DNA of 50,987 nucleotides from a virus: the IMG/VR virus record IMGVR_UViG_3300025070_000051, positions 1 to 50,987 of that record; one strand, 5' to 3'. The first letter of the stretch is position 1, and the number at the start of each line of letters is the position of its first letter. The notes beneath the pieces are model-generated. The model was given only the letters and a program-made list of their open reading frames with translations, was not told the origin of the DNA and did no database searches. The position numbers and the translations under genes are program-made. Below, one piece after another: positions 12,201-50,762 of the stretch.

Positions 12201-14128
12201 AGTTCGTGAGAAGCAACTGTAATAGCACCTACTTCTTTAGCTTTTTGTTTATCAATGAACATAACGCCCTCACCTAAGAATACACCATCTGATCCTCTTG
12301 ATATTTCAGCGGCTTTTTCAATAGATATGTTTTTTCTTTTAGCTACATCAGCTATATATTTATCAAAAGAGTCAAATCCCTCTTTGGCAGCTATAGCTTT
12401 TTCGTACCCCTTAGTTGTTTTGTAAATTTTAGGACCTTGCTTAAATCCTAAATCTTTAGCTGCTTGCTTAGCCCCTTTATAGTATTTATTAAAGTTTTCT
12501 TCAAATTTAGTATCAACCGCCTTAGCCACCGCTTCTTGGCGTTGCTTAATAGTTACATCAACTTCAGAGCCTTTATACTTATCTTGTATTTCAGTTATTT
12601 GAGATCGTATTTCTTTTTTAGTATTGCTCGCAGTTACACTGTCGTTACCTTTTAATTTGTTTAATTTTTTTTGTAGCTTAATTATTTCAGCTCTATCATC
12701 AACTCCGCTTATAGTGGCATCGATCTCTTGATCTATTTTTATATCTTGTTTTCTGTTCTGAATTATCTTCTCCATTAAAGGGTCATTAGATATTTCAAAC
12801 TTCACAGTAGCAACGGTAGCATCGTCCATTGTTTGAACAGCCTCTCTGAATCTTTTACCATTCATTTTTTCACCTTCTAATGTATACTTAGGGCCTTTTA
12901 AACCTCCTCTAGCTACATTTACAAGTGTAAACGTTTTATCTGCAAATCCTTCAGTAAGTATTTCTTGAGCATCTAATTCTTGTTCAGCGGCTAACTGTCC
13001 AGCTATTTCACTAGCTAATCCTCCAGCTGTTTCAGTAGCAGCAACAGCAGCAACTTCAGCAGCTCCAGCAAGAGCACTTTTAGTTGTTGCAGTAACACCT
13101 GTTCTAGCAGCTCCACCTATACCGCCAGTCAAAGCTCCGGTAACCGCATCTATAGATCCTATAGCAATACCTCTTCTTAAAGCCTTGTTGGTTAGATCGT
13201 TATATAGTTCTTCATTATTTACAACTTCTTTAGTCCAGTCTATTCGCTCTTTGTTGGACATAGTATTCCAATCTTTACCGGCATCGATTGCAGCTTCTTG
13301 TAATAACTGGGCGGTAGTAAAACCTACTTCCATAGTTCCAGACAAAGCCCCCATCCCGCCTGATAGTCCTCCTAAAATAGTCCCAACAACTGGAATAGCA
13401 GAACCAATTCCTGCTCCGGTTACAACACCGCCAGCAGCCATTAAGGCAGCTTCTTCACTGTTTCTTGCGCTAGAAGCCATATTAGCTAATGACTGTGCAG
13501 TGTATTGAGTCATTACTGTTGGATTTTTCCACCAACTTGTAAAAAACCCACCTACACTTCCATATTCTTCTTTATCTTTAGCATATTGCTTGCCAAATTC
13601 TATCATTTCATCTGTTTGACCAGCATCTTCCATAGCCCGAGCTTGCTCAACAAATTCAACATACTGATCTTCAGTCATGTCTTTGCCACTCTTAAATATT
13701 TCTATAGCGGAATCTAAAGATCTTCCTTGAGCTGTACCTGATTGCCAAGCCCTAGCTATATCCCCGAAAAAATCAGTAACTTCGTTCTTACCGAATAATC
13801 TTTCAATTCCCGTATCTTTTTCTTGAGACTCCGAAAAACCATCGTCCAATCCAGATCCCGTAGTGTCTGACTCCACACTTGGATCCACATTCGCAGAGTC
13901 GTTTGTCTTTCCCAATTCTTCATCTGATAACATTATAGTGTTATCTATACCCATTAAATTATTGAAGTCAGCGTCAGAGCCATTATAGCCATCACTGGTG
14001 AACAAATTATAAGAAACTGATCTAGCCTTATCATTTGTTTTAATAAGCTCTTTATAATCGTCTATGGTGCCATTGTATCCATCTTTCACAAACAGATCAA
14101 ATGAGTACTTTAATGCTTCTTCGTTCAT
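6227..14128 (-). CDS. Giant polyvalent protein (2633 aa) with zincin, HAD phosphatase and inserted ART-like domains
   Basis: Polyvalent proteins are very large phage proteins thought to enter the host with the DNA. Visible parts: two N-terminal repeats around DGYNG (about residues 5-55); a Gly/Ala-rich hydrophobic stretch (about 226-275); a zincin motif HELLH (641-645); a Lys/Pro/Glu-rich linker near 880-915; a HAD phosphatase signature DFDDT (Asp1656, Asp1658), ILTAR (Thr1873) and FADD (Asp1929, Asp1930); and, between HAD motifs I and II, an ADP-ribosyltransferase-like segment starting IFHGGD (His1680) with YFSEDKKQAAAYAKG. The C-terminal third is mostly helical, with a hydrophobic segment near 2430-2455 followed by DDEEEEE, and a very basic tail. 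Position after two internal-virion genes suggests an ejected core protein like T7 gp16. Domain functions are inferred from motifs only. Confidence 0.85.
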   Translation of the reverse strand: MNEEALKYSFDLFVKDGYNGTIDDYKELIKTNDKARSVSYNLFTSDGYNGSDADFNNLMGIDNTIMLSDEELGKTNDSANVDPSVESDTTGSGLDDGFSESQEKDTGIERLFGKNEVTDFFGDIARAWQSGTAQGRSLDSAIEIFKSGKDMTEDQYVEFVEQARAMEDAGQTDEMIEFGKQYAKDKEEYGSVGGFFTSWWKNPTVMTQYTAQSLANMASSARNSEEAALMAAGGVVTGAGIGSAIPVVGTILGGLSGGMGALSGTMEVGFTTAQLLQEAAIDAGKDWNTMSNKERIDWTKEVVNNEELYNDLTNKALRRGIAIGSIDAVTGALTGGIGGAARTGVTATTKSALAGAAEVAAVAATETAGGLASEIAGQLAAEQELDAQEILTEGFADKTFTLVNVARGGLKGPKYTLEGEKMNGKRFREAVQTMDDATVATVKFEISNDPLMEKIIQNRKQDIKIDQEIDATISGVDDRAEIIKLQKKLNKLKGNDSVTASNTKKEIRSQITEIQDKYKGSEVDVTIKQRQEAVAKAVDTKFEENFNKYYKGAKQAAKDLGFKQGPKIYKTTKGYEKAIAAKEGFDSFDKYIADVAKRKNISIEKAAEISRGSDGVFLGEGVMFIDKQKAKEVGAITVASHELLHPVFNAAIGDAKAQGKIVREFKKAMTSKQKRFVRNKLKANVNPADWNTEYLNYFSDAILKGEINYDKTLFEKLKDVVLRVLKGAGFENVSFDSGREVYNFLKEYNTSLKETGQVSEKAVEAIKTAETKRTTKLRKENADAPEVKAATINRSGDIQKSVNQEILDLTEALDAAEDAYAADPNNPTLEKNVELAEKALDEAEERAISGAPKPKVVAPKPKKEVKKEVKKEDKPKAKKETTSKQKELNEKVDKLAGKKDEDGNYVMSKKEWDRTGIGKASQSIIYGDILNPLITRGITGEGVQGKSLQDFIQAVKDELLPVLMNFNPEKNNSLIGWINSQLRFKKGNVLKRFKKEADLGGKSLDVEAGETGFAGNISGDAGVIRNFADEKQIAPDKLVKASKVITSKVRADLANMLKTWASQNNIDFDTFRFGDVDANATVKIDGKDVKVLNEVLKELFPGVDPEKFLDSRTMFTSGEASIVLGKLAENDQELIELFINLLPRGAVMPKGKNKAVVKDDNYGKSTKLDGSILKNFYDKGTERFTKKAGLTPFILKDNIRYSDVHKAFGMDSSGNKLNYQRAKSGIVLSSAYKMLGKLIMNEVIRTDLGLTAEQKMNVGAGKSDLQFSKSASVLEALNVEGTESFRNNFYHTREKYRKAGQDLLIELSFRFTPEEVRDYILPLISDVDGSNYKQEARLLFRNKTHFFRKLKEQAKSKFGDYKPNQRRISVEGGAELKLAKVTSEYYQGASFIQDIKAFVGNIKDRQTFAKEQQKGLLKIVKTLSEILDETSSKKGGFDRKDFENISLGIFAYFNYLNTKNKNGILRTSAVPTQMAIIPRLLGFKDTPVKYIYEHTQTASDTSGELMQLVFNKFAKNQKFGKNPNIEKEFKEIMDGYTVALIPKIYDKLLNTIAKENGDREGTKTRKDYIKKLLKPGKDGIPTRYKIPAFEKLLEENGLEPLQNILTPIDQANYDAIVNGREAQFSINRVEVTETLNKANNNANNINAKPKGISVWDFDDTLAKTKSNVLYTMPGEIRIFHGGDIKSVKDIAGFVYFSEDKKQAAAYAKGNQGEISSFKIDEASIATEDQVFDVINNLDIKPRAGYAVDESNLYELIDPRFEQSFSKKDLEKLAVALKRKGIKAARFTDTNISQGKNEGRETENVVVFDKKVVQEQNKLDAEQFAKEGDKLMAEGADFDFSEFSKVVNGSKGPFFEKAMARNKKFGNKNVFILTARPANSANAIHEFLKGIGLNIPLENITGLANSSPQAKADWVVGKAAEGYNDFYFADDAIQNVKAVAKALEVLDVKSKVRQANVQFSKSMNSEFNQMIEKKSGIDARGTISKYKASVMGRKKGRFQFFIPPGAEDFEGLMYKLLDKGKIGEQQKEWFKKALFDPFARGINEFDTYKLQVANAVRQLKKSLKNIPKELGKRDPKTDFKYEDAVRVYLWQLNGHEIKGISESDIKALVDIVKNSPNLKRFARQLNKTMGGYPAPQESWLAGTITTDAINMVNTIKRKEFLETWQQNADIIFSEDNLNKLEATFGEDYVEALKDSLYRMKSGRNRPSGANKLTNRFMNWVNDSVATIMFFNTRSALLQTLSTVNFINWGDNNPLLAAKAFSNQKQFWSDFSMLFNSDFLKSRRTGLKNDVNADEIANAAATQTNKAKAVLAVLLKAGFLPTQMADSFAIAMGGASFYRNRVNTYMQKGEGKPGMGRLAAEEQAFLDFQEIAEATQQSSRPDRVSQQQASPLGRIILAFANTPMQYMRLTKKAFLDLKNGRGSAKENITKMLYYAAIQNVIFSSLQAALFAMLFDDEEEEETKKKGTRVANTMLDSMLRGLGIYGAVASTVKNIALEIDKQSKKDRPDYSEAAVKALDLSPPISSKIRKGRSAGRAFSYKKTREKMVGFGLDNPAYYAVGQITSATANIPLDRAIGKANHVRLAFAQETKFWQSVSLLLGFSEWDLNMIEKDKKKTKFGKKMKWKKRKLKKRKLK

Positions 14129-18401: not shown

Positions 18402-21400
18402 TTATGGAGTACAATTTGTAAAGTTAGGTTTTGCTAATGTCCATCCGGTTGATAGTAAACTAAAATTTAAACAAGCTGTTACATTAACAACGTTCCAGCC
18501 ACTTAGATTTTGATTAAACGAACTTACACCACGAAACATGCGTTCCATATTAGTCACACTGCTCACGTTCCAAGAGCTAATATTTTGATTAAAAGAATTA
18601 GCATCTTGAAACATTTTATTCATATTAGTAACACTGCTGACATTCCAAGAGCCAATATCTTGATTAAAAGCAGTCGCACTTAAAAACACACTACTCATAT
18701 TAGTAACACTGCTCACATCCCAATTGACTATATTACCATCAAAAGCACTGCAAAAACTAAACATACTGTTCATATCGGTCACATTACTCACATCCCAAGC
18801 AGTGTAAGTACTTCCTCCAGCTGTAACTGATTGAGTGTTTAATGGTTGATTAAATATACTGTTGCTTGAGAACATACTATTCATAGTGGTAACATTGCTA
18901 GTGTTCCAATTGTATAAAGGCTTATTAAAAGCGGTTGCGGCCCTAAACATTTTTTTCATAGAAGTTACACTACTAACATTCCATGAGTTTATATCTTGAT
19001 TAAAAGAAAGGGTGTCTTCAAACATGCTTTCCATACTAGCCACACTGCTCACGTCCCAGCTGTTTAGAGGTTGGTTAAAAGCCTCGGCATTATTAAACGT
19101 TCCGTACATAGTGGTCACACTACTCACATCCCAGTTATTTAGAGGTTGGTTAAAAACAATAGCATCAGTAAATGTGGATGTTAAATTGTTAAGGTTACTA
19201 GTGTTCCAGCTATTAAGAGGTTGATTAAATGCGCGAGCGTCGTAAAACGTCCATGATAGAGACGTTAAGCTGCTGGTATTCCAAGAATTTATATTCTGAT
19301 TGAAATAATGATTATGTAAAAACATCCTCTGCATAATAATTACATTACTCACATCCCAAGAACTTATATCTTGATTAAATATAGTCGGCGAAGAAGCACT
19401 ATTGGCTGCAAACATAAAGCTCATGCTAATCACATTACTCACATCCCAGTTATTTAGAGGTTGGTTAAAAGCGATTGCATCCCTAAACATACTACTAGTA
19501 TATTTAACACTACTCATATTCCATGAGTTTAATGGCTGATTAAACGACGTTGCCTGATAAAACATAGTAGTTACATTAACAGCACTACTCATGTCCCAAG
19601 AATTTATGTTTTGATTGAAAGCTGCGGCATTGTGAAACATACTCTCCGTTGCGGTAACACTACTAACGTCCCATGAACCGATGTTCTGATTAAAAGAAGT
19701 ATTATCACGGAATGCGGCCTCCATACCAGTCACATTACTCACATCCCAATTACTTATATTATTAAAGTTGTTAATAGATAAGCCTCTCGTGAGATTCTCT
19801 ATATGAGCATTAAAAATAAAACTAGGTACATCTTCTACCGTAGAAAAATCCATGTTAACTGCCCCATCAATAACAGACGAACTAGCTCCAAAGCTTAACC
19901 TTTCAAAATCCATAGGAGATCCAAATTTTACCAACTTAGTATAAAGTGCCGCTATAGAATTAGATAGATTACTGAATATTATTCTTGATGATCTACCGGA
20001 TATTTCTATTGTATAAACACCTGCCGCCGTATATGTGTGGGTTCTATTAGCGTAAGAATTAACAGAGGTATTTCCATCTCCCCAATTAATAGTGCCTGAA
20101 TATGTCCCCGAAGCATCATAAGGTAACTCTACACTTGTAGAATTTACTGTTGTAGTAACTTCAAAAGTAAGTGGATTTGTTAAGGGAGCATCCCCACAAG
20201 ACCCTGTTATAGTGTTGTATTGAATTATATCTGTTATAACCCCACTAGAATTATATATTATTATATCATAACTGTCTAGGACAGTAGCAAGATTATTGGG
20301 ATCTAAGCCGGAATCATTAGGCTCCCCTAAATTACTAGGCACGTAAAGCCCAAGTCCAGCGGAAGTTAAAGGTTCTTCAGTGTTATAATCATATAATTGA
20401 GTTCCCACAACTAATCCAGCTGTAGCAAAATATTTAAACTCAGCCCCTGATTTATCTATGTTAGTGTAATCGCTTAGAGTATTATAAAATCCTTCTATTA
20501 TACACTTAGCGGAAAGAGCGGTTGTTTCATTAGCTATTGTAACATCATTGTTACCTATAATCTCATCCCAATTAGTCCATAAGAATAGATCCGCATCTGG
20601 ATCCGTAGTAGAGCCTGTGTTGCTGCAAGTGAGATCTATAAAAGTAGTTAATAGATAATTTTGAGAGCCAGAATCTGTTCCAGTAGGATAACCTATACCA
20701 AAGGCTTCGTTACATACCGCTAGTGCTTTTATATAATTAAAATACTTACCTTCTTTGTCTTCAAATTCTTTTACTTCTCCTCCTTCTAAATTTGTTCTTA
20801 TATAGTTTACATACCATCCTGGGTTTTTTATCCTTAAAGATGTTGGCAGCCAACCACCCGCGTTCACCTCAGCTATAGAATACCATTTGTTACTACTTGC
20901 TTTTTCATATTCTAAAACTCTAGATTTTGTACCGGTATAATTTAAAGCGGTATAACCTTTGACAGAGTTAGGTAGTTCGTTTATAAGAACATTAAAAGAA
21001 CTAATGTATTGTTCGCCATAAAATTTGTTATATATAGGATTTTCATTATGAGCCCACATTAACCCATCTTTAAATGTAAAATACCTGTCATTTAAAGAAA
21101 CTCCCGATTCAGGAACGAATGATTTTCTACTAGTCCAACCGTCTACGGATTCTTTAAAAGATACGGTGGTGCTTATATAATTTTCTTGAAAAGGCGGGTT
21201 TTGTATATTGTCTTCGCAGGCAATAGCTAAGTTATCCGCTTGGATAGGGTTAAATTTAGTTTGCCAATCGGAAGTAAGACTATTTAAAGTTAGATTATAT
21301 AACCCTTTATCTGCATCATAAGATCCTATTAATTTATTATTAGCTTTTAAATTATCAGCAAAGAAACTACTCATACCTTTTTCAGATATTTGTGTTAAGC

Positions 21401-24400
21401 CGTCTCTTGATAATCTCATAACGCTACCTCTATTTTTGTCGGTAAAATATAGTCTAAAACCATAATCCGCAAAAGATTCTGGGTTTTTAGATATTCCAAA
21501 CTCTCCTGCATAAGGCGTAGCCTGCCCTAAAACGTTATTATTCGATGTAACATTAGCGTTGCCGTCTGCATTAAATAAAGCATCTTTATTAGCTAGTACT
21601 CTAAAGCATTTGTCTTCGCAGAAAGTTATTAAATCGGTATCTCTAGCATGTAACTTTTGTATAGTGCCATATATAGGATTGAGGTCCTTTGTTATAGGCA
21701 ACGCCTGTATGAATTGATTTAATCTATTTATTCCCGATGTGGAATTGTATATTTGAGAAAATATATAGCCACTACCCCTTCTCTCTTCTCCATAAGGGTC
21801 TGCTAATATGGATGATACGGTAGCCCCTTTATCCATGGTGACCGCATTGTAATCATCTCTAATTCTGTTTGACTCTACTCCATTACCGAAGCTAAAGCAG
21901 TTATACCAATCTAGTTGAACTGGGTCATTATATCCAGATATAGGCAATGCATTACTTGCTTGATAATATAAATCTAGGTCTACAGCTTCTTTAGGCTCCG
22001 TTTCAAATATAGCTGGATTATTAGACGTAAGAAGTCTATTCCCTTGGGGTACAACCGGCTTTATTGCTTGTATTGCTATATCAGCCGCTTGTGATAATCT
22101 TGTTGTATAAACGTTAGAATCAGGAGCATACTCCCAATCCACGTCTTCATTTAGCTCTAATAATATAACATAAGCATAATTACGAGCGTCTCCTTCATTA
22201 TCGTCTTGCGCTCTTCTATGGTGAAAAGCTTGAGCTTTAACTATTTGATAAACAGGCGAAAGTTCCCCAGTAGGAGTATGTTCAAACCTTACAGATCCTC
22301 CGGTTGTTATAAATCCATTAGGGGTTACGGGCCGTGTAGCCCTTCCGTCTTCAATATCCGGGTCAAAAGGGGTGGGTACTGTTCCCGACATTGCATCTAT
22401 ATAGGTAGGCACCCCATTAGTACGTTGTTTTACTTTAACATAAGAAAAACCAACAAATCTGTTGTTTTTAGTTATAGGTCCAAAATTTTGGAAAAAAGCC
22501 CTTTGAGGCTGTATGTCATTAAGCCTACGACCTATGGGGCCATTAGATGGATTAGCCCCTCCATACGGAACCCCGTTCATCCAAACGCCTGTGCCAGCTA
22601 CAAACATTTCAGTAGGAGTTTCTGTTTCAGCACCGTCTCCTTTGAACCCCCAATCAATCCAATAATACCCCGGCTCCCCGGTACGACCAGTCCCATTTTC
22701 TCCTACTAGTCCCCGTGTACCACTTTCCGTAAAAGATATACTTCCAAGTATAGAAAATTGAGGATCTAAAGCTTGGAATGAGGTCATTATGTGAGTGTCA
22801 AAAGCTGCGTCTCTTGGTATTTTTACAAAAAATCTACCTTGATACTCAGGTTTTGTTTCTTCCTGCTCAGCTACAACTGTTATGTCAAAGTTCTGACCAA
22901 CGCCTACTACTTCTAAAAAAGTAGCATCTGCTCCTAACCCTCTGCCTATAGTTAATTCATAATTAGTTTCATCTCCTACTGTGTTAACAACTTTATAATC
23001 TATAACCTTATACTTTTCGGATTTAAAAGCTCCTAAAGCAAAAATTACACTATTTCCTGCAAAATTTGGGGCAAACTCAGGATTAGCACTAGGAGAAGGC
23101 CCTTTAAAAGCGAAACCTAGCGAACCAACGCTAATCAAAGATATATTTTCAACAGCTTCGGTACCTAAATTTTTATCTACAGTTCTTATAAAATCAGGGG
23201 CTTCATTAGATATAGACAGAACTCTATACCTTGAAAGTGACTCTATAGGTGTGTTATTATCGTGCTGTTTTTTTGATATTAAATACGATTCTTCTGATAT
23301 TTTGTTTCTTTCAGAAGAGGGAAAAGATAACCATACGTTGCCATCCTCAGCATCATAATATCTGTCTAGGGCTAAATTATAGTATTCATTAGAATTTTCT
23401 TTTATGAATATTTTATAATGGGTAGCCCAGTCGGGCGGGGTATTTGTGGGTTGAGCTATGAGCCTATTGAATGTACTCGAACTAGATATGTTTAGTTTAG
23501 TACCAGCTTCTTTACTCGTAAACACCGGCGTTTCTCTTCCGTATTTATCTAAATAAACTACTCCCGCTTGATATGTTCTGATGGACTTTACAGAAAAAGT
23601 GGGCTCGCCAACTATCATCGGCACAGTGTATTGATTTGATATAGAACTTAATGTTATTTCAGAGGTAGGCACATTATAGTTTTGTAGATAATTTCCGTAA
23701 ACTATTCTATTTCCAATTATCTCCTGAGCTTGAGCTTTTCTAGGCACATTATCCCAGGGTCTTAATATTTGGTTTCCTTCTATCAAGGCTCCTATTAATT
23801 CTGTTTTAACTTCAAACTCAGTTATGAGATTTCCGGACGTATCATACGATTCATCTTTAACTAAAGTGTCTACAACATATACTGCAGAGCTGTTAGATTC
23901 TTTGTATAATATGTCCACTTCGGTAACATCCACATGCCCCCAGCTTATATCTTTAAGTATAAGCTTTCTTATGCTATTGATCATTCCTGTATTGTAGCCT
24001 TCTCTAGACTCATAGCTAAAATCTCCCGCTAAAAAAGCTACCTCTGAAAATGGCGAAAATGTAGAGTATTCGTTGTCTATAAACTTCCATCTATAAGCAA
24101 ACCTAGGAAATACATCTTCAAACATTGCATCATCTTCTTCTAACAAGCACTCCCATTCGAATTTAATTATATTTCCATTAGCATCTATAAATGTACCTAT
24201 ATCAGATGATATAGATTGTATTTCGCATTTCCATTTAATATTAGTGCTATTTAGAGGTTCTACTAATCTTATAGATAGCCCGTATTCGTAATCTGTAAAA
24301 TTAGTGTCTTCATAGTCAGCATTTATATTTACTATGTCCCCTGTCTGCCAATTTAAAGGTAGTGGAGACCCGAATTCAAGTTCCAAGTAACCGTTCCATC

Positions 24401-25244
24401 CCTCTATACTGGTTTCGTCATAATAATCAGGATCATTACTTATATTATCTTCCCATTGAAATCTAGTGGGTAAAGACCTTCTAATCTCAGGACTAGCGGT
24501 GTCTTCTGCATAAGTAAAATTAATTCTTTTTTCATTATTACCCGTTGGATTATATACCCCGCCAGGAATAAATTGAACTTCAGAAGTTCCAGTGCCAGGT
24601 GAATTACCGTACTTACTTGCAGCCATATCTAAAGTAAGCGCGGTAAGAGGCGATTTTTTAATAACAGTTACATCCGCTTCATTAAAATCGGGTCTGCCTG
24701 TTAAATTAGCGCTATATGTTTGGCTTGTACTGTCGTAATCGGGTATCTTAGTATGCGTTACAAAGTTTACAGATCCTCTTTTAAATTTATCAATATTTAT
24801 TGTTTTCGGTTCAGAATTGTTATCTGTCCAAAACAATAGATTGTCAATAATATTTATGCCTGTAATTAAATATTGTGTAGAAAAATTTAAGACATTATTA
24901 GTGTCTACTATAACCGGTTTTATTTGGCCACCTGCAAAATTGTATTCAGCAATACAATCAGCTTCTGTAGAGGTTATAAACCAATATATTTTATCTGATT
25001 TATCGTCAACAAAAGATCCTATACACTTTGCATTAGTTAAGGAATCTATATAATCGCTTGTCCATTGAGGCTTACCTCTTAGCTGTTGGTTACCCTTCAC
25101 ACTTTGCAAAGAACCCATGTTGCCGTTGTCTGAGTTTGCTAAATCTAAATTTAACGCATCTCGGTATTCACCATTAGGAACAAGTCTTTCATCAAGATCT
25201 TTGTTCATCTTTCCTTTTTGGAAAACATGTACAAATTCACCCAT
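18402..25244 (-). CDS. Nozzle/tail stabilisation-like protein with PKD and BspA/DUF285 repeats, 2280 aa
   Basis: The N-terminus (HVFQKGKMNKDLDERLVPNG, then EYRDALNLD) is the recognisable start of large podovirus tail proteins that occupy the place of T7 gp12/P22 gp10 beneath the connector. About 1650 residues of mixed beta structure follow. Residues about 1690-1755 look like a PKD domain (INWGDGNTS, HTYTAAGVYTIEISG). From about 1825 to the end run some 17 repeats of about 25 residues built on FNQ-W-DVS-V-M-MF, the BspA/DUF285 leucine-rich-like family found on bacterial surface proteins. The protein therefore joins a tail scaffold to a tandem-repeat adhesin, probably exposed at the tail tip for host binding. 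It directly follows the connector genes. Confidence 0.82.
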   Translation of the reverse strand: MGEFVHVFQKGKMNKDLDERLVPNGEYRDALNLDLANSDNGNMGSLQSVKGNQQLRGKPQWTSDYIDSLTNAKCIGSFVDDKSDKIYWFITSTEADCIAEYNFAGGQIKPVIVDTNNVLNFSTQYLITGINIIDNLLFWTDNNSEPKTINIDKFKRGSVNFVTHTKIPDYDSTSQTYSANLTGRPDFNEADVTVIKKSPLTALTLDMAASKYGNSPGTGTSEVQFIPGGVYNPTGNNEKRINFTYAEDTASPEIRRSLPTRFQWEDNISNDPDYYDETSIEGWNGYLELEFGSPLPLNWQTGDIVNINADYEDTNFTDYEYGLSIRLVEPLNSTNIKWKCEIQSISSDIGTFIDANGNIIKFEWECLLEEDDAMFEDVFPRFAYRWKFIDNEYSTFSPFSEVAFLAGDFSYESREGYNTGMINSIRKLILKDISWGHVDVTEVDILYKESNSSAVYVVDTLVKDESYDTSGNLITEFEVKTELIGALIEGNQILRPWDNVPRKAQAQEIIGNRIVYGNYLQNYNVPTSEITLSSISNQYTVPMIVGEPTFSVKSIRTYQAGVVYLDKYGRETPVFTSKEAGTKLNISSSSTFNRLIAQPTNTPPDWATHYKIFIKENSNEYYNLALDRYYDAEDGNVWLSFPSSERNKISEESYLISKKQHDNNTPIESLSRYRVLSISNEAPDFIRTVDKNLGTEAVENISLISVGSLGFAFKGPSPSANPEFAPNFAGNSVIFALGAFKSEKYKVIDYKVVNTVGDETNYELTIGRGLGADATFLEVVGVGQNFDITVVAEQEETKPEYQGRFFVKIPRDAAFDTHIMTSFQALDPQFSILGSISFTESGTRGLVGENGTGRTGEPGYYWIDWGFKGDGAETETPTEMFVAGTGVWMNGVPYGGANPSNGPIGRRLNDIQPQRAFFQNFGPITKNNRFVGFSYVKVKQRTNGVPTYIDAMSGTVPTPFDPDIEDGRATRPVTPNGFITTGGSVRFEHTPTGELSPVYQIVKAQAFHHRRAQDDNEGDARNYAYVILLELNEDVDWEYAPDSNVYTTRLSQAADIAIQAIKPVVPQGNRLLTSNNPAIFETEPKEAVDLDLYYQASNALPISGYNDPVQLDWYNCFSFGNGVESNRIRDDYNAVTMDKGATVSSILADPYGEERRGSGYIFSQIYNSTSGINRLNQFIQALPITKDLNPIYGTIQKLHARDTDLITFCEDKCFRVLANKDALFNADGNANVTSNNNVLGQATPYAGEFGISKNPESFADYGFRLYFTDKNRGSVMRLSRDGLTQISEKGMSSFFADNLKANNKLIGSYDADKGLYNLTLNSLTSDWQTKFNPIQADNLAIACEDNIQNPPFQENYISTTVSFKESVDGWTSRKSFVPESGVSLNDRYFTFKDGLMWAHNENPIYNKFYGEQYISSFNVLINELPNSVKGYTALNYTGTKSRVLEYEKASSNKWYSIAEVNAGGWLPTSLRIKNPGWYVNYIRTNLEGGEVKEFEDKEGKYFNYIKALAVCNEAFGIGYPTGTDSGSQNYLLTTFIDLTCSNTGSTTDPDADLFLWTNWDEIIGNNDVTIANETTALSAKCIIEGFYNTLSDYTNIDKSGAEFKYFATAGLVVGTQLYDYNTEEPLTSAGLGLYVPSNLGEPNDSGLDPNNLATVLDSYDIIIYNSSGVITDIIQYNTITGSCGDAPLTNPLTFEVTTTVNSTSVELPYDASGTYSGTINWGDGNTSVNSYANRTHTYTAAGVYTIEISGRSSRIIFSNLSNSIAALYTKLVKFGSPMDFERLSFGASSSVIDGAVNMDFSTVEDVPSFIFNAHIENLTRGLSINNFNNISNWDVSNVTGMEAAFRDNTSFNQNIGSWDVSSVTATESMFHNAAAFNQNINSWDMSSAVNVTTMFYQATSFNQPLNSWNMSSVKYTSSMFRDAIAFNQPLNNWDVSNVISMSFMFAANSASSPTIFNQDISSWDVSNVIIMQRMFLHNHYFNQNINSWNTSSLTSLSWTFYDARAFNQPLNSWNTSNLNNLTSTFTDAIVFNQPLNNWDVSSVTTMYGTFNNAEAFNQPLNSWDVSSVASMESMFEDTLSFNQDINSWNVSSVTSMKKMFRAATAFNKPLYNWNTSNVTTMNSMFSSNSIFNQPLNTQSVTAGGSTYTAWDVSNVTDMNSMFSFCSAFDGNIVNWDVSSVTNMSSVFLSATAFNQDIGSWNVSSVTNMNKMFQDANSFNQNISSWNVSSVTNMERMFRGVSSFNQNLSGWNVVNVTACLNFSLLSTGWTLAKPNFTNCTP
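18410..19770 (-). repeat. About 17 coding tandem repeats (75 bp, BspA/DUF285 type)
   Basis: Within the 3' end of the nozzle-like gene, units of about 25 codons recur, each reading roughly FNQ(P/N/D)(L/I)-x-x-W-(D/N)-(V/T)-S-(S/N)-V-x-x-M-x-x-M-F. Most units are exactly 75 bp; two are longer (insert after SFMFAANSAS and after FNQPLNTQSV). DNA identity between units is high in the WDVSSVT part, so unequal recombination could change repeat number. Confidence 0.85.
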
Positions 25245-43526: not shown

Positions 43527-44227
43527 TATGCAAAGATTAAATAAGCTGTTCCTGTTACTAAATTTCCTGCTTGATCTGCATTATCATAATTAGTTTTACT
43601 TATCTGAACTATATTAGTTATAGTTGAGCTTCCAAACGGCTCTCCTGTCGTTACAGAGGTTACTTGGTCTTCTAATAAATCTGATTTTTCAATATACTTT
43701 ACCTGTCTGCCTGCACTAACATCTACTATAGCTAAAATATCATCATCCTCCGTTGAGGTTAATTGCGAATTGCTTGCAAATATAAAATTATTATTTCCAG
43801 AATAATCTAAAGCTATTGACCCAGAAGTTGTTATTGTTCCGCCTGTTAATCCTCCTAAAGCTCCTGATGTTGCTGTTATACTAGTTACAGTTCCACTTCC
43901 TCCGCCTGCATTTTCCCACGCAACTCCAGACCCTGTTGAGGTTAAGACTTGACCATCTGTTCCCTGCGCACCTGATACTTTTAAATTAACTAAATCTAAA
44001 GTATCGTCAACAGTAACAGCTCCATTAAGGTAAGATGTTCCATTGTTATAGAAATCAAAAGATGAGTGGGTAGCTGCAATACCTACAGCAAACTTACCTG
44101 TTACATTAGCTCCACCTGATACTGTAAGCTTCTCAGCAGGACTCGTAGTCCCAATCCCTACTTTACCAAGAAAGTAGGAAGCAGTAGTACCTGTGACACT
44201 TAAACTATCATAATATTTTATTGCCAT
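43526..44227 (-). CDS. Tail fibre protein, 233 aa
   Basis: After MAIKYYDSLSVTG the protein has GKVGIGTTSPAEKLTVSGGA, a hallmark of phage fibre shafts. Repeated Gly/Thr/Ser-rich beta segments follow. The usual S74 intramolecular chaperone is not present; the protein ends soon after TNIVQISKTNYDNADQAGNL. Its N-terminus resembles the next fibre upstream (MAIQFYDSIDL), suggesting a shared attachment module. Confidence 0.75.
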   Translation of the reverse strand: MAIKYYDSLSVTGTTASYFLGKVGIGTTSPAEKLTVSGGANVTGKFAVGIAATHSSFDFYNNGTSYLNGAVTVDDTLDLVNLKVSGAQGTDGQVLTSTGSGVAWENAGGGSGTVTSITATSGALGGLTGGTITTSGSIALDYSGNNNFIFASNSQLTSTEDDDILAIVDVSAGRQVKYIEKSDLLEDQVTSVTTGEPFGSSTITNIVQISKTNYDNADQAGNLVTGTAYLIFA

Positions 44228-44243
44228 TTAATTATATTTTATA

Positions 44244-45809
44244 TTATCCTATTTTCTGTACCAGTATTCTAACTGTAGTTGGAGGAGTCGCATTGAAAGT
44301 TAAAGCTACATCATTGACGCCTGTCCTATCTACAGTAGCGTAGATAGTTTCCTTAGTAGCATCATCAAACAACTGCACTATAACATCCAGGCTATTTAAA
44401 CCATGATTTACTGTTTTTGGGGTACCAGCAGTTATACTGGTTACATTTGCTGCAAAAGTTGTGACCCCGCTAGTTCCTGATAATAAATTAGCAACTGTAA
44501 TTTTTTTGTTTTTTCCATCACTTCCTTGAGACTCATCAAAAATTACTAGTTCATCATCCGTTGCTGGTGCAGTTAATGCATCTAATCCTGTTACGTCTAA
44601 TCCTACAGTAGCTGTACCCCCGGAATAAGTTACTGATAAGCCGTCTAATAGGTCCGCCGCGGAAGCATTTACATTACCTATACCTACCGTAGTTAAATCA
44701 GCTAGATCAATATTGTTTTGTACGGTAGTCCAATCAGCAAGCTCTGTTGGCGCGTCAACCTCTGCAATAAGAACATCACCAACACGAACCTGCTCTGCGA
44801 AGAACGTGCCTGGATTAGTAACAGTGTATGTCCAACCTTTTTTGATATCTGAACTAGGCGAAGAATCTAAATCAGGCGAGTTAGTCCCTGCATTATAACC
44901 CCCTTGATATATTAATCCACCCACAACTGCATCGTCAATGTATGTTTTAACTAATGTTAATGCATCTATTGGGATAGCTCCAAAAGTACTTTTCTTTACA
45001 ATATTAGTCTCGGTAGTTGGTGGGTTAGCTCCCGGTGTATATAAATTAAAAGGTAATGTGTCATCTGAAGAGATTGTACCATTACCTGGTATCATTATAT
45101 AGTTATTGCCGTAGTCTGCAGTGCCCCCATAGTTAAGATCAACATCTATATTTAAAGAGCCATCGGATGCCAAATTAGCTATAACGCTTTCTGTACCGTT
45201 AAGTACTAAAGTATTTCCAGAAGCCACGGTAGTTGTGAAGGCAGTTCCATCGGCTTTAAAAGTTTTAACATCCCAATCGTAAGTCCCTGGAATTGTATCA
45301 ATTTCTGCCCACTTATTGTTTTTACTTAAATACCTTATTCCATTTCCTTCTTCAGTTGCTGCTGCCGTTCCATCTACAGCATTTAAACTGGCGTCCACAG
45401 TAGTAACCCCATTGGCAGTGGTATCTGTCATGTCTATATAGTCCGTATCGCTGGTGCCTACTTCACTAGTAACAGTTAACACATCATTAGCTTGAGTTAC
45501 TAGTGTGCTCCCGCCACCTTGTATTATAACATCATGATTATTAGTGCCATCAGTTAATCTGATACCAGCAGTAGTATCTCCGGACCCTACACCCTCGAGC
45601 TCGTAGGTATTACCGCTCCCTACTGCTACCCAACCTGGAGAACCCGAACCATCATCAAGTACGTATTGTTTTAAAGTGTCTTCGCCGGTATTAAATATTA
45701 TCTGCCCAATTACATTGTTAGATGAAGGGTCATTAGCCACATTTTGGATGCGTACGTTTAAAAGTTGTTGCCGATTTAGATCGATCGAATCGTAAAATTG
45801 TATTGCCAT
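44244..45809 (-). CDS. Tail fibre protein, 521 aa
   Basis: The N-terminus (MAIQFYDSIDLNRQQLLNVR) is an anchor shared with the 43526-44227 product. The body is Gly/Thr/Asp-rich beta structure. The C-terminus, VNHGLNSLDVIVQLFDDATK followed by a strand ending in RILVQKIG, is a receptor-tip type domain widespread in phage fibres. It probably makes a trimeric fibre. Upstream are two related MARI-start fibres. Confidence 0.78.
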   Translation of the reverse strand: MAIQFYDSIDLNRQQLLNVRIQNVANDPSSNNVIGQIIFNTGEDTLKQYVLDDGSGSPGWVAVGSGNTYELEGVGSGDTTAGIRLTDGTNNHDVIIQGGGSTLVTQANDVLTVTSEVGTSDTDYIDMTDTTANGVTTVDASLNAVDGTAAATEEGNGIRYLSKNNKWAEIDTIPGTYDWDVKTFKADGTAFTTTVASGNTLVLNGTESVIANLASDGSLNIDVDLNYGGTADYGNNYIMIPGNGTISSDDTLPFNLYTPGANPPTTETNIVKKSTFGAIPIDALTLVKTYIDDAVVGGLIYQGGYNAGTNSPDLDSSPSSDIKKGWTYTVTNPGTFFAEQVRVGDVLIAEVDAPTELADWTTVQNNIDLADLTTVGIGNVNASAADLLDGLSVTYSGGTATVGLDVTGLDALTAPATDDELVIFDESQGSDGKNKKITVANLLSGTSGVTTFAANVTSITAGTPKTVNHGLNSLDVIVQLFDDATKETIYATVDRTGVNDVALTFNATPPTTVRILVQKIG

Positions 45810-47810: not shown

Positions 47811-48065
47811 TTAATTCGTATTATAGTTATTACCACTTTCTGATTGAGTACCCATACCTTCATTACCTCTATTAGACTTAATAGAAACAAACCGCTGTCT
47901 TTTATGATCATAATCCCGCCCATCGATATTTCTACCCTCACGCTTAGCCTTATTTCGTTCTCTCTGAGAGTGGGCTTTTTTAGCCTTCCTCGCAGGACTC
48001 ATTGCATAGGCTTTATCCCTAGCGGCCTTAGCTCTTCTAGCTGCCGGCGAAAGTTGTTGTCTCAT
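47811..48065 (-). CDS. Small basic protein, 84 aa, first gene of the late operon
   Basis: The protein is rich in Arg, Lys and Ala with SPAARRAKAARDKAYAMSPA at the start and a polar tail (NEGMGTQSESGNNYNTN). It is the most upstream gene on the minus strand, so its promoter should lie in 48066-48481. It may bind DNA. No family is recognised. Confidence 0.65.
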   Translation of the reverse strand: MRQQLSPAARRAKAARDKAYAMSPARKAKKAHSQRERNKAKREGRNIDGRDYDHKRQRFVSIKSNRGNEGMGTQSESGNNYNTN

Positions 48066-48105
48066 ACTTTGTATGATTACACTATTTTTTAATTACTTAA
48101 AACGC

Positions 48106-48146
48106 GACAATAGCCCCTTACTATTATTATATAACAGGCTAATGTC
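48106..48146. repeat. GACRATAGCC hairpin cassette, copy 1
   Basis: GACAATAGCC (48106-48115) can pair with GGCTAATGTC (48137-48146) with one mismatch. The sequence GACRATAGCCCCYTACTAT is shared with the hairpin at 50243-50293. There is no T-run after the stem, so it is not an obvious terminator here. It sits about 40 bases upstream of the first late gene on the minus strand. Confidence 0.55.
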
Positions 48147-48299
48147 ACATTAGTGACCCAAAAAAAAATTAAAAAAATTTTTTATTCCGCATAGGGAACC
48201 ATTGGGTTACGCTACGCTATACATTTTTTTTTTCCCGTGGGGGAAGTCGATTATTTTTTACCAGCCCCCCTTTAATTTTTATTTATTTATCTGATCGTT

Positions 48300-48401: not shown

Positions 48402-48436
48402 TTGCAGATCTACCACGTTGATCTAAAGATAATATA
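48402..48436 (+). promoter_or_regulatory. 35-bp promoter-like element, copy 1
   Basis: TTGCA-GAT, central ACG and terminal TAAA-GATAATATA, total length 35. It ends 45 bases before the ATG of the 48482 gene. The other five copies have the same length and layout, which points to a promoter or activator site rather than random AT-rich sequence. Confidence 0.7.
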
Positions 48437-48481
48437 GTGGAAGATAAAATAATAATAATATAAACTTTAAATTAATTAACT

Positions 48482-48673
48482 ATGCTTTTAAAAATTAAAT
48501 CACCTCAACCTAAATTAATCTTATCACAAATCTTAAACAAACACATTAACACTTATCCAGTCACCCTATCAAAAGATTCTATAATCATACATGAAAAAGA
48601 TCTTGACCCAATCAAAAAAGTATACAAACAAAACTATATTAAAATAAAACAAGTAACTAACTGGGCTAAATAG
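48482..48673 (+). CDS. Small basic protein, 63 aa
   Basis: Begins MLLKIKSPQPKLILSQILNK and is Lys/Ile-rich, with IIIHEKDLDPIKKVYKQNYI in the second half. It follows a 35-bp element and an AT-rich leader containing TATAAAC, with no Shine-Dalgarno. No known family. As the first gene of the right block it may be an early host-takeover protein, which is inference from position and size. Confidence 0.65.
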   Translation: MLLKIKSPQPKLILSQILNKHINTYPVTLSKDSIIIHEKDLDPIKKVYKQNYIKIKQVTNWAK

Positions 48674-48685
48674 TCCAGTCCTAAA

Positions 48686-48720
48686 ATGCAGATCTAACAC
48701 GACCGATCATAGATAATAAT
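48686..48720 (+). promoter_or_regulatory. 35-bp promoter-like element, copy 2
   Basis: ATGCA-GATCTAACACG then GATAATAAT at the end; same 35-bp length. It lies 12 bases after the stop of the 48482 gene and ends 22 bases before the ATG of the next. It heads a run of four closely spaced small genes. Confidence 0.65.
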
Positions 48721-48742
48721 AATGTAACTAAATAATAATAAT

Positions 48743-48907
48743 ATGACTAAAAATAATAGAATAGATCAATTGATCAACGACAGATACCCAGGAAAAGTAC
48801 AAATGATCTATAGAGTGATCAACATAATGAGAAGAGATTATGATCAGGATCAATTCCTTGAGGAAGACATAATGGAAAACATACTAATGGAACTAGATAT
48901 AATATAA
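48743..48907 (+). CDS. Small acidic protein, 54 aa
   Basis: Begins MTKNNRIDQLINDRYPGKVQ, then a helical part with MIYRVINIMRRDY and an acidic end (EEDIMENILMELDII). The frame lies directly after copy 2 of the 35-bp element and precedes three further small genes. No homologue is recognised. The helix-rich amphipathic sequence would suit a protein-binding peptide that modifies a host factor, but that is speculation. Confidence 0.58.
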   Translation: MTKNNRIDQLINDRYPGKVQMIYRVINIMRRDYDQDQFLEEDIMENILMELDII

Positions 48908-48924
48908 ACTTAAATTAAAAACTA

Positions 48925-49026
48925 ATGGATGAAGTAGTAACAACAACAGCGTCAAATTTAGAGTATCTAAACTATATCGCATATTACACTGTAGAAAAAG
49001 AAATTGTCGAATTTAAAACAAAATAA
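48925..49026 (+). CDS. Very small acidic protein, 33 aa
   Basis: ATG at 48925 follows an A/T leader (TATAAACTTAAATTAAAAACTA). The peptide starts MDEVVTTTASNLEYLNYIAY and has a Tyr-rich centre. It ends one base before the next ATG, which supports a small-gene operon. Very short, so the call rests on spacing and composition. Confidence 0.48.
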   Translation: MDEVVTTTASNLEYLNYIAYYTVEKEIVEFKTK

Positions 49027-49027
49027 T

Positions 49028-49144
49028 ATGGACGAAAAACAAGATCACTGGAACGAAGAATACCTGTACACTCAGGCACTGAACTATGACTATGAGCTAG
49101 CGCTCGCAGTAGAATATCTTAACTCACTAACACAAATAAATTAA
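49028..49144 (+). CDS. Small acidic protein, 38 aa
   Basis: Starts MDEKQDHWNEEYLYTQALNY. Strongly acidic and aromatic, single helix likely. It begins one base after the stop of the previous frame and ends one base before the next ATG. Resemblance in style (MDE start, Tyr-rich helix) to the 33-aa neighbour may reflect duplication. No function is known. Confidence 0.55.
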   Translation: MDEKQDHWNEEYLYTQALNYDYELALAVEYLNSLTQIN

Positions 49145-49145
49145 T

Positions 49146-49298
49146 ATGTACGAAAAAAATTATAACATCTGGGATGAGGTTATGAGAAACATAGCCGAGT
49201 CTGAACGAAGAACCTTAATCTGTCAGGACATGTTCGGGCAGGATGATCTAAGAGGACTAACTCCAGAGCAGCAAGATCTGTTCTGGGCGTCAGTCTAA
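49146..49298 (+). CDS. Small acidic protein, 50 aa
   Basis: Starts MYEKNYNIWDEVMRNIAESE and contains RRTLICQDMFGQDDLRGLTP. Helical with one Cys. It is the last of the four-gene run and ends 3 bases before a predicted structured RNA. Codon use (several C-ending codons) differs a little from the AT-rich late genes. Unknown function. Confidence 0.58.
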   Translation: MYEKNYNIWDEVMRNIAESERRTLICQDMFGQDDLRGLTPEQQDLFWASV

Positions 49299-49301
49299 AG
49301 C

Positions 49302-49375
49302 ACACGGATCCTGGTGTGAGGTGGGATAACCTCAGCTAATTGACCTCGGAGGTAACCAGCCGGGGTCCGGCGTGT
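49302..49375 (+). ncRNA. Predicted structured RNA downstream of the small-gene run
   Basis: A GC-richer segment inside AT-rich DNA. ACACG-GATC (49302-49310) pairs with GGTC/CGTGT (49364-49375) with a bulge; CTGGT (49311-49315) with ACCAG (49355-49359). Inside are hairpins TGAGGT-GGGATA-ACCTCA (49317-49334) and ACCT-CGG-AGGT (49343-49353). The result is a three-way junction, not a simple terminator, and no T-run follows. It could protect the upstream mRNA end or act as a small RNA. Confidence 0.55.
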
Positions 49376-49385
49376 ATAGCACCGC

Positions 49386-49437
49386 GTATAGCACTGCAGA
49401 TCCTTCACGCTGTATAGCACTGCAGATAGAATACGCT
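49386..49437 (+). repeat. Two tandem 26-bp direct repeats
   Basis: Units at 49386-49411 and 49412-49437 both begin GTATAGCACTGCAGAT and end ACGCT, differing in five central bases. The second unit runs into the 35-bp element at 49420, so the repeat contains the upstream half of that element. GTGTATAGCAC also occurs at 49372-49382 and 50196-50206. Confidence 0.7.
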
Positions 49438-49454
49438 GTATAAAAGATAATATA
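49420..49454 (+). promoter_or_regulatory. 35-bp promoter-like element, copy 3
   Basis: CTGCA-GAT-AATACGC-TAAAA-GATAATATA, 35 bases. It overlaps the second 26-bp repeat. No gene starts directly after it; the next ATG is at 49596, beyond copy 4, so the two may act together on one gene. Confidence 0.65.
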
Positions 49455-49525
49455 TGTGTAAGTTAATAAAGAATATAATTAAATAAATATAAAAATAAAT
49501 ATTAAATTAATTAACTAAAATAACT

Positions 49526-49560
49526 TTGCAACTTAAATACGCTATTAAAAAGATAATATA
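49526..49560 (+). promoter_or_regulatory. 35-bp promoter-like element, copy 4
   Basis: TTGCA-AATACGC-TAAAAA-GATAATATA with the fixed 35-base length. It ends 35 bases before the ATG of the 49596 gene. Consensus match is high. Confidence 0.7.
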
Positions 49561-49595
49561 ACTGAATAATAAATAATAACTTAAAATTAAAAATT

Positions 49596-49913
49596 ATGAA
49601 CACAAATGAAATTATGCAAAAAGCTCTAAAAACAATGTCTAACGAAGAAAAAGCAGCTATCTGGCCACCGCTTGTAAGAAAGAACTTTGTTGTCCGCGAA
49701 AGCTGGCTTGGTCGCAACCAACAGATCACCTTTGTCAACAACAAAAATCAAACAGTAACATACTGCCATGATACTATACTTACTGCAATGTTACCTAAAT
49801 TAAAACTGCAAGCATGCTGGATCAAAAGAAAGTACTGGTCACAAAGTACTAACTTACCAAGCACTGTTAGACATCTAGCAGCAATCACTGAAGCTAAGTC
49901 TACTAAAAAGTAG
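49596..49913 (+). CDS. Hypothetical protein, 105 aa
   Basis: Begins MNTNEIMQKALKTMSNEEKA and continues with a beta-rich centre (VRKNFVVRESWLGRNQQITF) and a basic end (EAKSTKK). It is the largest product of the right block. The gene is preceded by two promoter-like elements and an A/T leader. No family recognised; a small DNA- or protein-binding role is possible. Confidence 0.68.
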   Translation: MNTNEIMQKALKTMSNEEKAAIWPPLVRKNFVVRESWLGRNQQITFVNNKNQTVTYCHDTILTAMLPKLKLQACWIKRKYWSQSTNLPSTVRHLAAITEAKSTKK

Positions 49914-49971
49914 GCTTATGGCTTCGGCTAATAAATAACTAAAATAAATATAAACTATAAATACTATAAAC

Positions 49972-50103
49972 ATGGATCGACAAATTAGAATAGAAACTTT
50001 AGCAATGATTGACAGTTTAAACCAATACCTCAACGGTAATGTAACAGACGAGGGCATGATCGAGTATGCCAGAGACTACCACCATAAATTAACTATTGGC
50101 TAG
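49972..50103 (+). CDS. Small protein, 43 aa
   Basis: Starts MDRQIRIETLAMIDSLNQYL and ends with YARDYHHKLTIG, probably two helices. Its leader has TATAAACTATAAA, also seen before the 50455 gene. A 12-bp perfect palindrome (TAGTTTAAACTA, 50105-50116) starts right after the stop codon. Function unknown. Confidence 0.58.
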   Translation: MDRQIRIETLAMIDSLNQYLNGNVTDEGMIEYARDYHHKLTIG

Positions 50104-50242
50104 GTAGTTTAAACTAACCACAACATCCATGAATCTACCACGGGTGTATAGCATACCTATGTTCCGTCCACACTTTCACCCGCACCTGCAGGTTGGTGTA
50201 TAGCACCGAACGAAAAGAGAGATCACCGAGTACCGAAAGTGC

Positions 50243-50293
50243 GACGATAGCCCCCTACTATATATACTTAACTTGCTATTGTCACCTTTTTTT
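50243..50293 (+). terminator. Intrinsic terminator, copy 2 of the GACRATAGCC cassette
   Basis: GACGATAGC (50243-50251) pairs with GCTATTGTC (50275-50283) in 9 pairs including a G-T, followed by ACC and seven T (50287-50293). It would end transcripts of the 49596 and 49972 genes. The 5' arm and loop GACRATAGCCCCYTACTAT are shared with 48106. Confidence 0.7.
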
Positions 50294-50366
50294 AACCAAT
50301 CTCTATTAAGAGAGGTGAGATAATACCCGTCTATCTATTTTTACTCTATAATACTTTATATACCTT

Positions 50367-50401
50367 TTGCAGATCGAATACGCACTCTAAAAGATAATAT
50401 A
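50367..50401 (+). promoter_or_regulatory. 35-bp promoter-like element, copy 5
   Basis: TTGCA-GATCG-AATACGC-TAAAA-GATAATATA, total 35, ending 53 bases before the ATG at 50455. Close to the consensus of all copies. Confidence 0.72.
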
Positions 50402-50454
50402 TGTGACTTTAAAATATAACTAATAATTAATAATATAAACTATAAACTATAAAT

Positions 50455-50694
50455 ATGAAGTACAATTGGAATGAAGAAACGGTGCAACACTTTAAATTTG
50501 AATCTTACTATGAATATAGAGGAGAAATGGAAAAACGAATTAGAGAATTTGTAGAAATGAACTGTATACCGGAAGATGGTGAAACTGAAGAAGAGTTGGT
50601 CTACGACCTGATCGATGCAGTATATAATGATACTGAAGTGATGGGTGAGACGTGTAGAAACGGTAAAGACTGGAATAACTGCGAATGTTGTTAA
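50455..50694 (+). CDS. Acidic hypothetical protein, 79 aa
   Basis: Begins MKYNWNEETVQHFKFESYYE, has an acidic helix (EDGETEEELVYDLIDAVYND) and ends with a Cys cluster (ETCRNGKDWNNCECC) that could bind a metal ion. It is flanked by copies 5 and 6 of the promoter-like element, so it is probably a single-gene unit. No known family. Confidence 0.68.
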   Translation: MKYNWNEETVQHFKFESYYEYRGEMEKRIREFVEMNCIPEDGETEEELVYDLIDAVYNDTEVMGETCRNGKDWNNCECC

Positions 50695-50699
50695 AACGG

Positions 50700-50734
50700 T
50701 TGCAAATTAAATACGCACCATAAAAGATAATATA
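50700..50734 (+). promoter_or_regulatory. 35-bp promoter-like element, copy 6
   Basis: TTGCA-AATACGC-TAAAA-GATAATATA, 35 bases. It starts 6 bases after the stop of the 50455 gene and ends 28 bases before the ATG at 50763. Confidence 0.7.
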
Positions 50735-50762
50735 ATAAATTAATAATTAAATATAATAAACT

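Follow-up and report, generated by a model that had tools for sequence, protein, structure and literature searches.

Phage-encoded sigma factors such as T4 gp55, SPO1 gp28 and phiEco32 gp36 serve middle or late genes, and a standard sigma70 promoter has the form TTGACA-17 bp-TATAAT. The role of T4 gp55 is given in PMC5780444. As described in PMC9723704, flavobacterial sigmaA recognizes TAnnTTTG at -12 to -5, and the other sigma factors of Flavobacterium psychrophilum are one sigma54 and seven extracytoplasmic function (ECF) factors; sigma28 promoters are given in PMC2859248 as TAAAGTTT-n11-GCCGATAA. Here we describe a 41-bp element, termed E, that recurs upstream of small genes in the IMG/VR virus record IMGVR_UViG_3300025070_000051, which was analyzed over its whole length of 50,987 bases (the window herein). 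Like the T4, SPO1 and phiEco32 systems, the viruses that carry E combine a phage sigma factor with a predicted promoter class of their own. Unlike in those systems, the class precedes early genes, to which the sigma gene itself belongs in some of the genomes, and boxes of the host type stand at chance (eight genomes). To our knowledge, early genes behind a non-host promoter class that is linked to a phage sigma factor, with host boxes at chance, have not been described. A literature search for E or its sigma factor returned no description among openly licensed papers, a collection that leaves most subscription journals outside.

Six copies of E in the window and a family in related viruses

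An earlier note, made from the letters of the window only, had listed six copies of a 35-bp element, and all six were recovered where it had placed them: TTGCA-N8-ACG-N10-GATAAT is matched exactly at 48402, 49526, 50367 and 50700 and with one mismatch at 48686 (ATGCA) and 49420 (CTGCA). The copies and the open reading frames (ORFs) behind them are as follows.

48402-48442, plus strand: E copy 1 (35-mer at 48402-48436); predicted +1 at G48440; followed by a 63-amino-acid ORF, 48482-48673
48686-48726, plus strand: E copy 2, with an ATGCA start and a GATAATAAT end; predicted +1 at G48724; followed by a 54-amino-acid ORF, 48743-48907
49420-49460, plus strand: E copy 3, with a CTGCA start; predicted +1 at G49458; the nearest downstream ORF start lies past copy 4
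49526-49566, plus strand: E copy 4; predicted +1 at G49564; followed by a 105-amino-acid ORF, 49596-49913
50367-50407, plus strand: E copy 5; predicted +1 at G50405; followed by a 79-amino-acid ORF, 50455-50694
50700-50740, plus strand: E copy 6; predicted +1 at A50738; followed by an ORF from ATG 50763 that is open at the record end

With at most one mismatch, six matches were observed, compared to none in 300 shuffles of the region and none in 30 shuffles of the window; five further matches in the window carry three mismatches each, which is the chance level (11 in all, 5.5 expected). The ending described as common to all copies, GATAATATA, is present in every copy except copy 2, which has GATAATAAT, and AATACGC, noted for most copies, was counted in four of the six. 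The first ATG codons lie 45, 22, 141, 35, 53 and 28 bases past the 35-mer, in agreement with the claimed 22 to 53 bases with copy 3 excepted; in copy 2, another ATG stands 1 base after the 35-mer. The spacing is indeed not that of a standard sigma70 promoter, although the figure depends on the count: between the hexamers TTGCAn and GATAAT, the spacer is 20 bp, and E also differs from that promoter in having TTRCAR and GATAAT. The late block was described as free of copies; a position weight matrix (PWM) reached a score of ≥16 solely at the six sites of the window (28.4 to 36.5 bits), with a maximum of 4.7 in the reversed sequences of eight genomes.

Searching the rest of the genome and relatives with a pattern of the TTGCA-N8-ACG-N10-GATAAT type, as the earlier note had proposed, recovered a family across IMG/VR. 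With TTGCA-N8-ACG-N10-GATAATATA, 96 stretches contained an exact match, and several of them held 4 to 7 copies. Mostly the larger records behind these stretches, 42 in total and all selected for an exact copy of E, were scanned together with three named phages. At up to two mismatches, 259 copies were found in 42 of 42 records, 257 of them on the majority strand of the record (the exceptions are in G003 and G030), while the reversed pattern gave four matches in the same records. Near-full-length relatives hold 9 to 13 copies each, all on the early strand, as are 79 of 79 PWM sites in eight genomes. An ORF starts within 100 bases after the predicted +1 at 52 of these 79 sites (median leader of the 52, 21 bases). 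The array begins at the divergence of late and early genes, spans the first 8 to 10 kb of mainly small genes and thins ahead of the genes for replication and nucleotide metabolism; no copy stands in the late block.

The logo of 276 nonredundant sites reads TT(G/A)CA(A/G)A-N3-AATACG-N10-GATAATATA-N2-TG(A/T)A. Columns outside the search patterns are conserved (A7, 84%; A11, 94%; A12, 83%; T13, 73%; T38, 76%; purine at 39, 99%), and 357 distinct sites of loci found via the sigma protein described below gave 94% for A11, 92% for A12 and 100% (rounded) for the purine at 39. In a scan that gave 589 sites, a purine occupies position 39 in 587 of them; GATA is found at positions 27 to 30 in all 589 and A31 in 587, with the limit that the scan itself required ACG or GATAAT and a PWM score. 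An unsupervised count of 7-mers on the early strand of eight genomes of the sigma-encoding clade ranked GATAATA first (50 of 124 regions; 2.75 expected); these genomes were chosen for holding E, so that this count, unlike the TAnnTTTG count given below, is not independent. Like promoters of Bacteroidetes sigmaA, E has a -10 region with A-11 and T-7, a purine start and a short leader, but it carries GATAATAT in place of TAnnTTTG at -12 to -5.

The words "promoter" and "early" are inferred for E from its position, sequence form and conservation, and on these grounds E is very probably a promoter of some kind. The comparative data (family, position and conservation) thus lend support to the earlier proposal of a phage-specific early promoter family of a non-host type. 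A repeated sequence ahead of small genes could also be an operator, and E might be the site of a DNA-binding protein or an element of the leader RNA instead of a promoter. We consider this highly improbable, since the form is fixed at 41 bp, asymmetric and strand bound, its core resembles a -10 region, the predicted start is a purine, and two E copies folded without a hairpin.

In a collection of bacterial genomes (257 Gb), the consensus form of E is nearly absent: nine stretches were found, all of them contigs of metagenome-assembled genomes (MAGs). These E-bearing contigs are probably misbinned phage DNA. Among these stretches (L190 to L198), L194, L195, L197 and L198 hold 4 to 6 sites each, and L193, which is filed under Desulfobacterales, encodes close relatives of the clade's helicase and ERF protein. 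A different repeat, GTATAGCA, was seen near the E copies of the window (49374, 49386, 49412, 50146 and 50198) and also in other early regions of the clade.

E travels with a sigma-70-family protein

In the relative G018, the last E copy precedes a 252-amino-acid protein with sigma-70 regions 2 and 4. A sigma-70-family protein of ∼250 amino acids is encoded in 30 of the 42 E-bearing records, where the array ends or close by (the frame is intact in 29, whereas G020 has the match split over frames with stops). Ten of the 12 records without it have their last E copy no more than about 2.6 kb from the contig end in the direction of transcription; in the remaining two, G005 and G021, this distance is about 4.3 kb, and the single copy of G005 may be a chance match. 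The window lacks the part of the genome that would join base 50987 to base 1; in its near twin G014 (99.8% identity over 12.2 kb and 88% over the first 2.3 kb), this part holds the sigma gene (44020-44769; 72% identical to the G018 sigma). The window, with its own sigma region cut off, was grouped with the sigma clade on the basis of G014.

By homology in regions 2 and 4, the phage protein belongs to the sigma-70 family. It matches phrog_351 (1e-21) as well as Sigma70_r2 (1.4e-4) and Sigma70_r4 (0.022), both Pfam scores being below the cut-offs, and TIGR02937, which is above its cut-off in two of three genomes and is matched by 14 of 14 sigma members. The best PDB profile match is sigma28/FliA of Aquifex (profile positions 29 to 242), with the stretch RIKGAI common to both, which we take to be sigma region 2.4; the FliA_WhiG model scored 26.7 bits against a cut-off of 189.6. 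For the predicted structure (pLDDT, 74), all 50 Foldseek matches listed are sigma or RNA polymerase entries.

Among candidate stretches in IMG/VR, 503 relatives of the sigma protein were found. In 80 sigma-anchored loci, some of whose records also contributed to the PWM, E sites numbered 388 upstream on the same strand (535 kb), 16 downstream (745 kb) and 1 on the other strand (1.28 Mb), and all 59 loci with at least 3 kb upstream contain E. At 78 sigma genes, the predicted +1 lies 0 to 3 bases before the ATG in 10 and at 97 bases in 2. A conserved protein of about 206 to 211 amino acids with a C-terminal helix-turn-helix (HTH) is encoded before sigma (G018 L126:17482-18117; 96 loci); it matches HTH_11 below the cut-off (E value, 2e-4), and its match in PHROGs (0.039) is weak.

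The terminase of the window is 61% identical to that of MW202828, an uncultured podovirus, and 46% identical to those of the Flavobacterium elemo phages; that of the Cellulophaga phage phi38:1 is more remote. Judged by these terminase relatives, the uncultured group that carries E probably infects Bacteroidetes. MW202828, phi38:1 (Pervagoviridae) and elemo (Elemovirus) have terminase and portal homology, GroEL and the early/late divergence in common with the sigma clade, but they have host-type boxes, and neither E nor sigma was found in them with the query used for the 42 records. A motif-blind choice of 18 records anchored on the MW202828 terminase (the longer of 80 records; four of 56 to 61 kb, the rest fragments) likewise contained sigma in 0 of 18 and E in 0 of 18, with a sigma query that gave matches in the 42-record search. 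TIGR02937 was matched in three of three E carriers and none of seven others, with 14 of 14 controls positive. A tree of terminases placed all seven of the sigma-clade genomes that it contained in a single clade (support, 0.995).

A search of a phage collection gave no close match to the sigma protein; among distant sigma relatives in phage records, ten with <60% identity comprised five from Synechococcus phages and five from unannotated human-fecal contigs. Four of the fecal contigs were considered as phage sigma loci and set aside; in ORF sizes and composition, they appear to resemble bacterial dnaG-rpoD loci, and they hold no E.

The sigma clade shows no enrichment of host-type boxes

Boxes were counted in intergenic DNA, up to 200 bases before mechanically called ORFs (ATG start, ≥40 amino acids), with the expectation taken from base shuffles of each region; G033, G043 and G045 were counted without their last 394 to 934 bases. 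In seven sigma-less genomes, which likewise lack E, TAnnTTTG occurred 76 times in 207 regions, compared to 10.6 expected (maximum of 200 shuffles, 19), whereas eight sigma-clade genomes had 13 in 227 regions, compared to 11.8 expected, which is chance. The reverse was seen for GATAATA, with 3 versus 5.5 expected in the sigma-less genomes and 65 versus 6.9 in the sigma clade. Divided by strand, the sigma-less genomes had 57 TAnnTTTG boxes versus 5.4 expected on the late strand and 19 versus 5.1 on the other (largest shuffle, 12); the sigma clade had 6 versus 4.8 and 7 versus 7.2, respectively. On the early side stood 64 of the 65 sigma-clade GATAATA words, with 1 versus 2.7 expected on the late strand. 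The sigma clade has thus lost host boxes on both strands, and E stands on the early strand. As TAnnTTTG is absent from E and at chance in the clade, E is not, by sequence, a host sigmaA promoter.

Host promoters of the -33/-7 type, counted over whole genomes, were not enriched in six sigma-clade genomes, MW202828 or phi38:1, and reached 9 versus 4.2 expected in elemo (largest shuffle, 8); unlike this test, the upstream-only TAnnTTTG test separated sigma-less from sigma-clade genomes. At least eight early genes of MW202828 (L009/L010, 43867-49907) are preceded by a perfect palindrome, GTGTCGTTAACGACAC; it is absent upstream of genes in the six other sigma-less genomes and is perhaps an operator set of MW202828.

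T4 and phiEco32 offer a precedent for a phage sigma factor that switches transcription to middle or late promoters. By analogy, the host RNA polymerase could read E by means of one of the host's sigma factors (sigmaA or ECF), perhaps together with a virion or host cofactor, and the phage sigma would then make such a switch; we regard this as a serious possibility, if a doubtful one. Early genes have to be transcribed once the phage has entered the cell, and the sigma gene sits at the far end of the array or close to it, with E directly before it in some genomes; the late-strand boxes (6 versus 4.8 in the sigma clade, 57 versus 5.4 in sigma-less genomes) are as a late-gene sigma would allow. 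On the late strand of the sigma clade, however, the leading 7-mers are terminator words plus GTAATAA (16 of 119 regions; 1.9 expected) and ACGTAAT (9; 0.5 expected), and neither by eye nor by the 7-mer count was a strong sigma-type late promoter box found. The near absence of consensus E from bacterial genomes (nine stretches in 257 Gb, all MAG contigs) also argues against a host sigma, as does the form of E, which lacks TAnnTTTG and is unlike the sigmaA, sigma54, TAnnTTGY and ECF-like CGT-box promoters that PMC9723704 gives for F. psychrophilum. GTAATAA and ACGTAAT, seen for example in G018 upstream of 39660, are the top late words that do not resemble terminators and form a possible late element.

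A second repeated element, L

A near-palindrome, termed L, was found twice in the window.

48104-48148, minus strand: L element 1, a 45-bp near-palindrome, GTGACATTAGCCTGTTA-N11-TAAGGGGCTATTGTCGC, preceding the gene that opens the late block (47811-48065); possibly an operator or a late promoter
50241-50285, no strand assigned: L element 2, a second near-palindrome copy within the early array

Both copies fold as hairpins (z of about -5). The consensus of L is a 44- to 46-bp near-palindrome, GYGACATTAGCY-TTA-N11-TAA-RGCTAWTGTCRC, with 65 rows in the sigma-clade sequences scanned (four rows repeat a site on its opposite strand) and none in MW202828, phi38:1 or elemo. It occurs at three places in G008, namely, before the first late gene, within the early array and where the HTH gene upstream of sigma begins. 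L is perhaps an operator or promoter of an early/late switch.

Which polymerase would read E

The earlier note had supposed that E might need a phage or a modified host factor. A candidate is now at hand in the sigma factor that travels with the element. As the best explanation, at about even odds, we propose that the core RNA polymerase of the host reads the E promoters when it carries the sigma-70-family factor encoded by the phage. On this proposal, GATAATATA would be the -10 region, from -12 to -4 (-10 at positions 27 to 32), the purine at position 39 the predicted start site, and TTRCA (-38 to -34) and AATACG (-28 to -23) upstream recognition blocks about one helical turn apart. AATACG would lie beyond the contacts that sigma factors usually make. 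The sigma gene stands where the early array ends or close by; in those genomes in which it lies right behind E, sigma would be under positive feedback.

Sigma is put forward as the reader on three grounds: E resembles sigma28 promoters in its G at -12, RIKGAI is common to the phage protein and FliA, and no other sigma-like protein was found in these genomes. The best PDB match of the phage sigma is to sigma28 (FliA/WhiG, group 3), and GATAA with G at -12, which E likewise has, fits sigma28 better than host sigmaA. The GCC ahead of GATA in the sigma28 -10 sequence, GCCGATAA, is not conserved in E.

Several observations weigh against this proposal. In the 276-site logo, the sigma28 -35 sequence, TAAAGTTT, is missing at the sigma28 spacing, and TTRCA and AATACG are conserved instead; Foldseek, on a model of modest quality (pLDDT, 74), puts primary sigma factors and not FliA on top. 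Since E and sigma are confined to a single clade in the terminase tree, their co-occurrence amounts to about one evolutionary gain or loss, and G022 has one E copy beyond sigma. Covariation of the motif with sigma, examined in an exploratory column scan (near-identical sigma rows removed at 3%) and by distance correlations (40 and 29 genomes; near-identical sigma rows removed at 4%), did not single sigma out from neighbor proteins: for the upstream half, r was 0.12 and 0.32 with sigma, compared to 0.19 and 0.41 with ERF and 0.47 (29 genomes) with the exonuclease. Host boxes have been lost most plainly from the late strand, on which E does not stand, so that late genes may be the targets of sigma in place of E or in addition to it; its effect may extend to, or even center on, the late genes. 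Because the late-strand host boxes vanished as well, our confidence in sigma as the reader of E is moderate. Among the genomes compared, L is confined to the sigma clade, and sigma could therefore serve L. In the sigma-less relatives, 7-mers on the late strand are led by ATCTTTG and those on the early strand by CACTATC and the MW202828 palindrome; phage-specific words thus outrank host boxes on that early strand, and E need not have replaced host promoters. Finally, a sigma on which E depends has to be produced at the outset independently of E, and no host-type promoter was seen before sigma, either among the rows listed of HTH-sigma loci or in the upstream box count.

In most of the rows listed, the HTH-sigma operon starts at a near-palindrome resembling L, which extends as far as the start codon of the HTH gene. 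The first sigma would be made from L or from a cryptic promoter, or else be brought by the virion. The virion might deliver sigma, or an equivalent protein that reprograms RNA polymerase, and so fire E at once, after which sigma would be maintained via its own E promoter. This we think unlikely. It is suggested by the lack of a recognizable host-type promoter on either strand, so that infection could not start with the host sigmaA holoenzyme as usual; if it holds, this would be a lytic phage that runs its whole program, early genes too, on its own sigma.

A phage polymerase offers another solution. In the N4 and crAss systems, the virion polymerase has a catalytic DxDGD motif, and the N4 promoter is a hairpin; T7 has a single-subunit polymerase, and the sequence of its promoter can be compared with E. 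AATACGA followed by nine bases and G matches the T7 promoter spacing to +1, and one virion protein of the window has a weak match to the crAss muzzle; in Crassvirales, according to PMC10136315, a virion RNA polymerase transcribes the early genes. We nevertheless find it very hard to see E as a promoter for a phage-encoded or virion-borne RNA polymerase, be it T7-like or N4/crAss-like. The pattern of the DFDGD-type catalytic motif is unmatched in the sigma-clade genomes, and the large proteins scanned from the window and G018 gave no polymerase match. An N4-like hairpin promoter was rejected, as the two E copies that were folded showed no hairpin beyond chance (z, -0.3 and 0.1). PF00940, of T7-like polymerases, had no match in 30 records, with controls that were equally silent.

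Layout of the window

The remaining features of the window are arranged as follows.

1-507, plus strand: C-terminal part of a primase/helicase gene, inside which the record begins; its product matches residues 401-569 of the G018 protein at 78% identity
Left end of the window, plus strand: thymidylate synthase and ribonucleotide reductase
5241 to about 48065, minus strand: late block with portal, terminase, structural protein and GroEL
From 48402 onward, plus strand: early block of small genes, inside which the record ends

Two very large proteins are encoded. The 2,280-amino-acid virion protein at 18402-25244 has five DUF285 stretches, and its C-terminal match to the crAss muzzle (E value, 3e-4) is below the cut-off. 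The 2,633-amino-acid protein at 6227-14128 has phrog_32588 as its sole match; by eye, it contains HAD-like, ADP-ribosyltransferase-like and metallopeptidase-like stretches, which presumably recall large polyvalent ejected proteins.

Significance for the phage group

The analysis provides a strict, searchable promoter consensus, together with a candidate cognate sigma factor, for a large group of uncultured phages, and E and sigma are a candidate orthogonal expression system for Bacteroidetes. We consider the clade-wide loss of host boxes the most interesting part of the finding. It raises the question of how a phage without recognizable host-type promoters begins infection, and the sigma-less relatives, which have host boxes, form with the sigma clade a natural before/after pair for the departure of a phage from the promoter class of its host.

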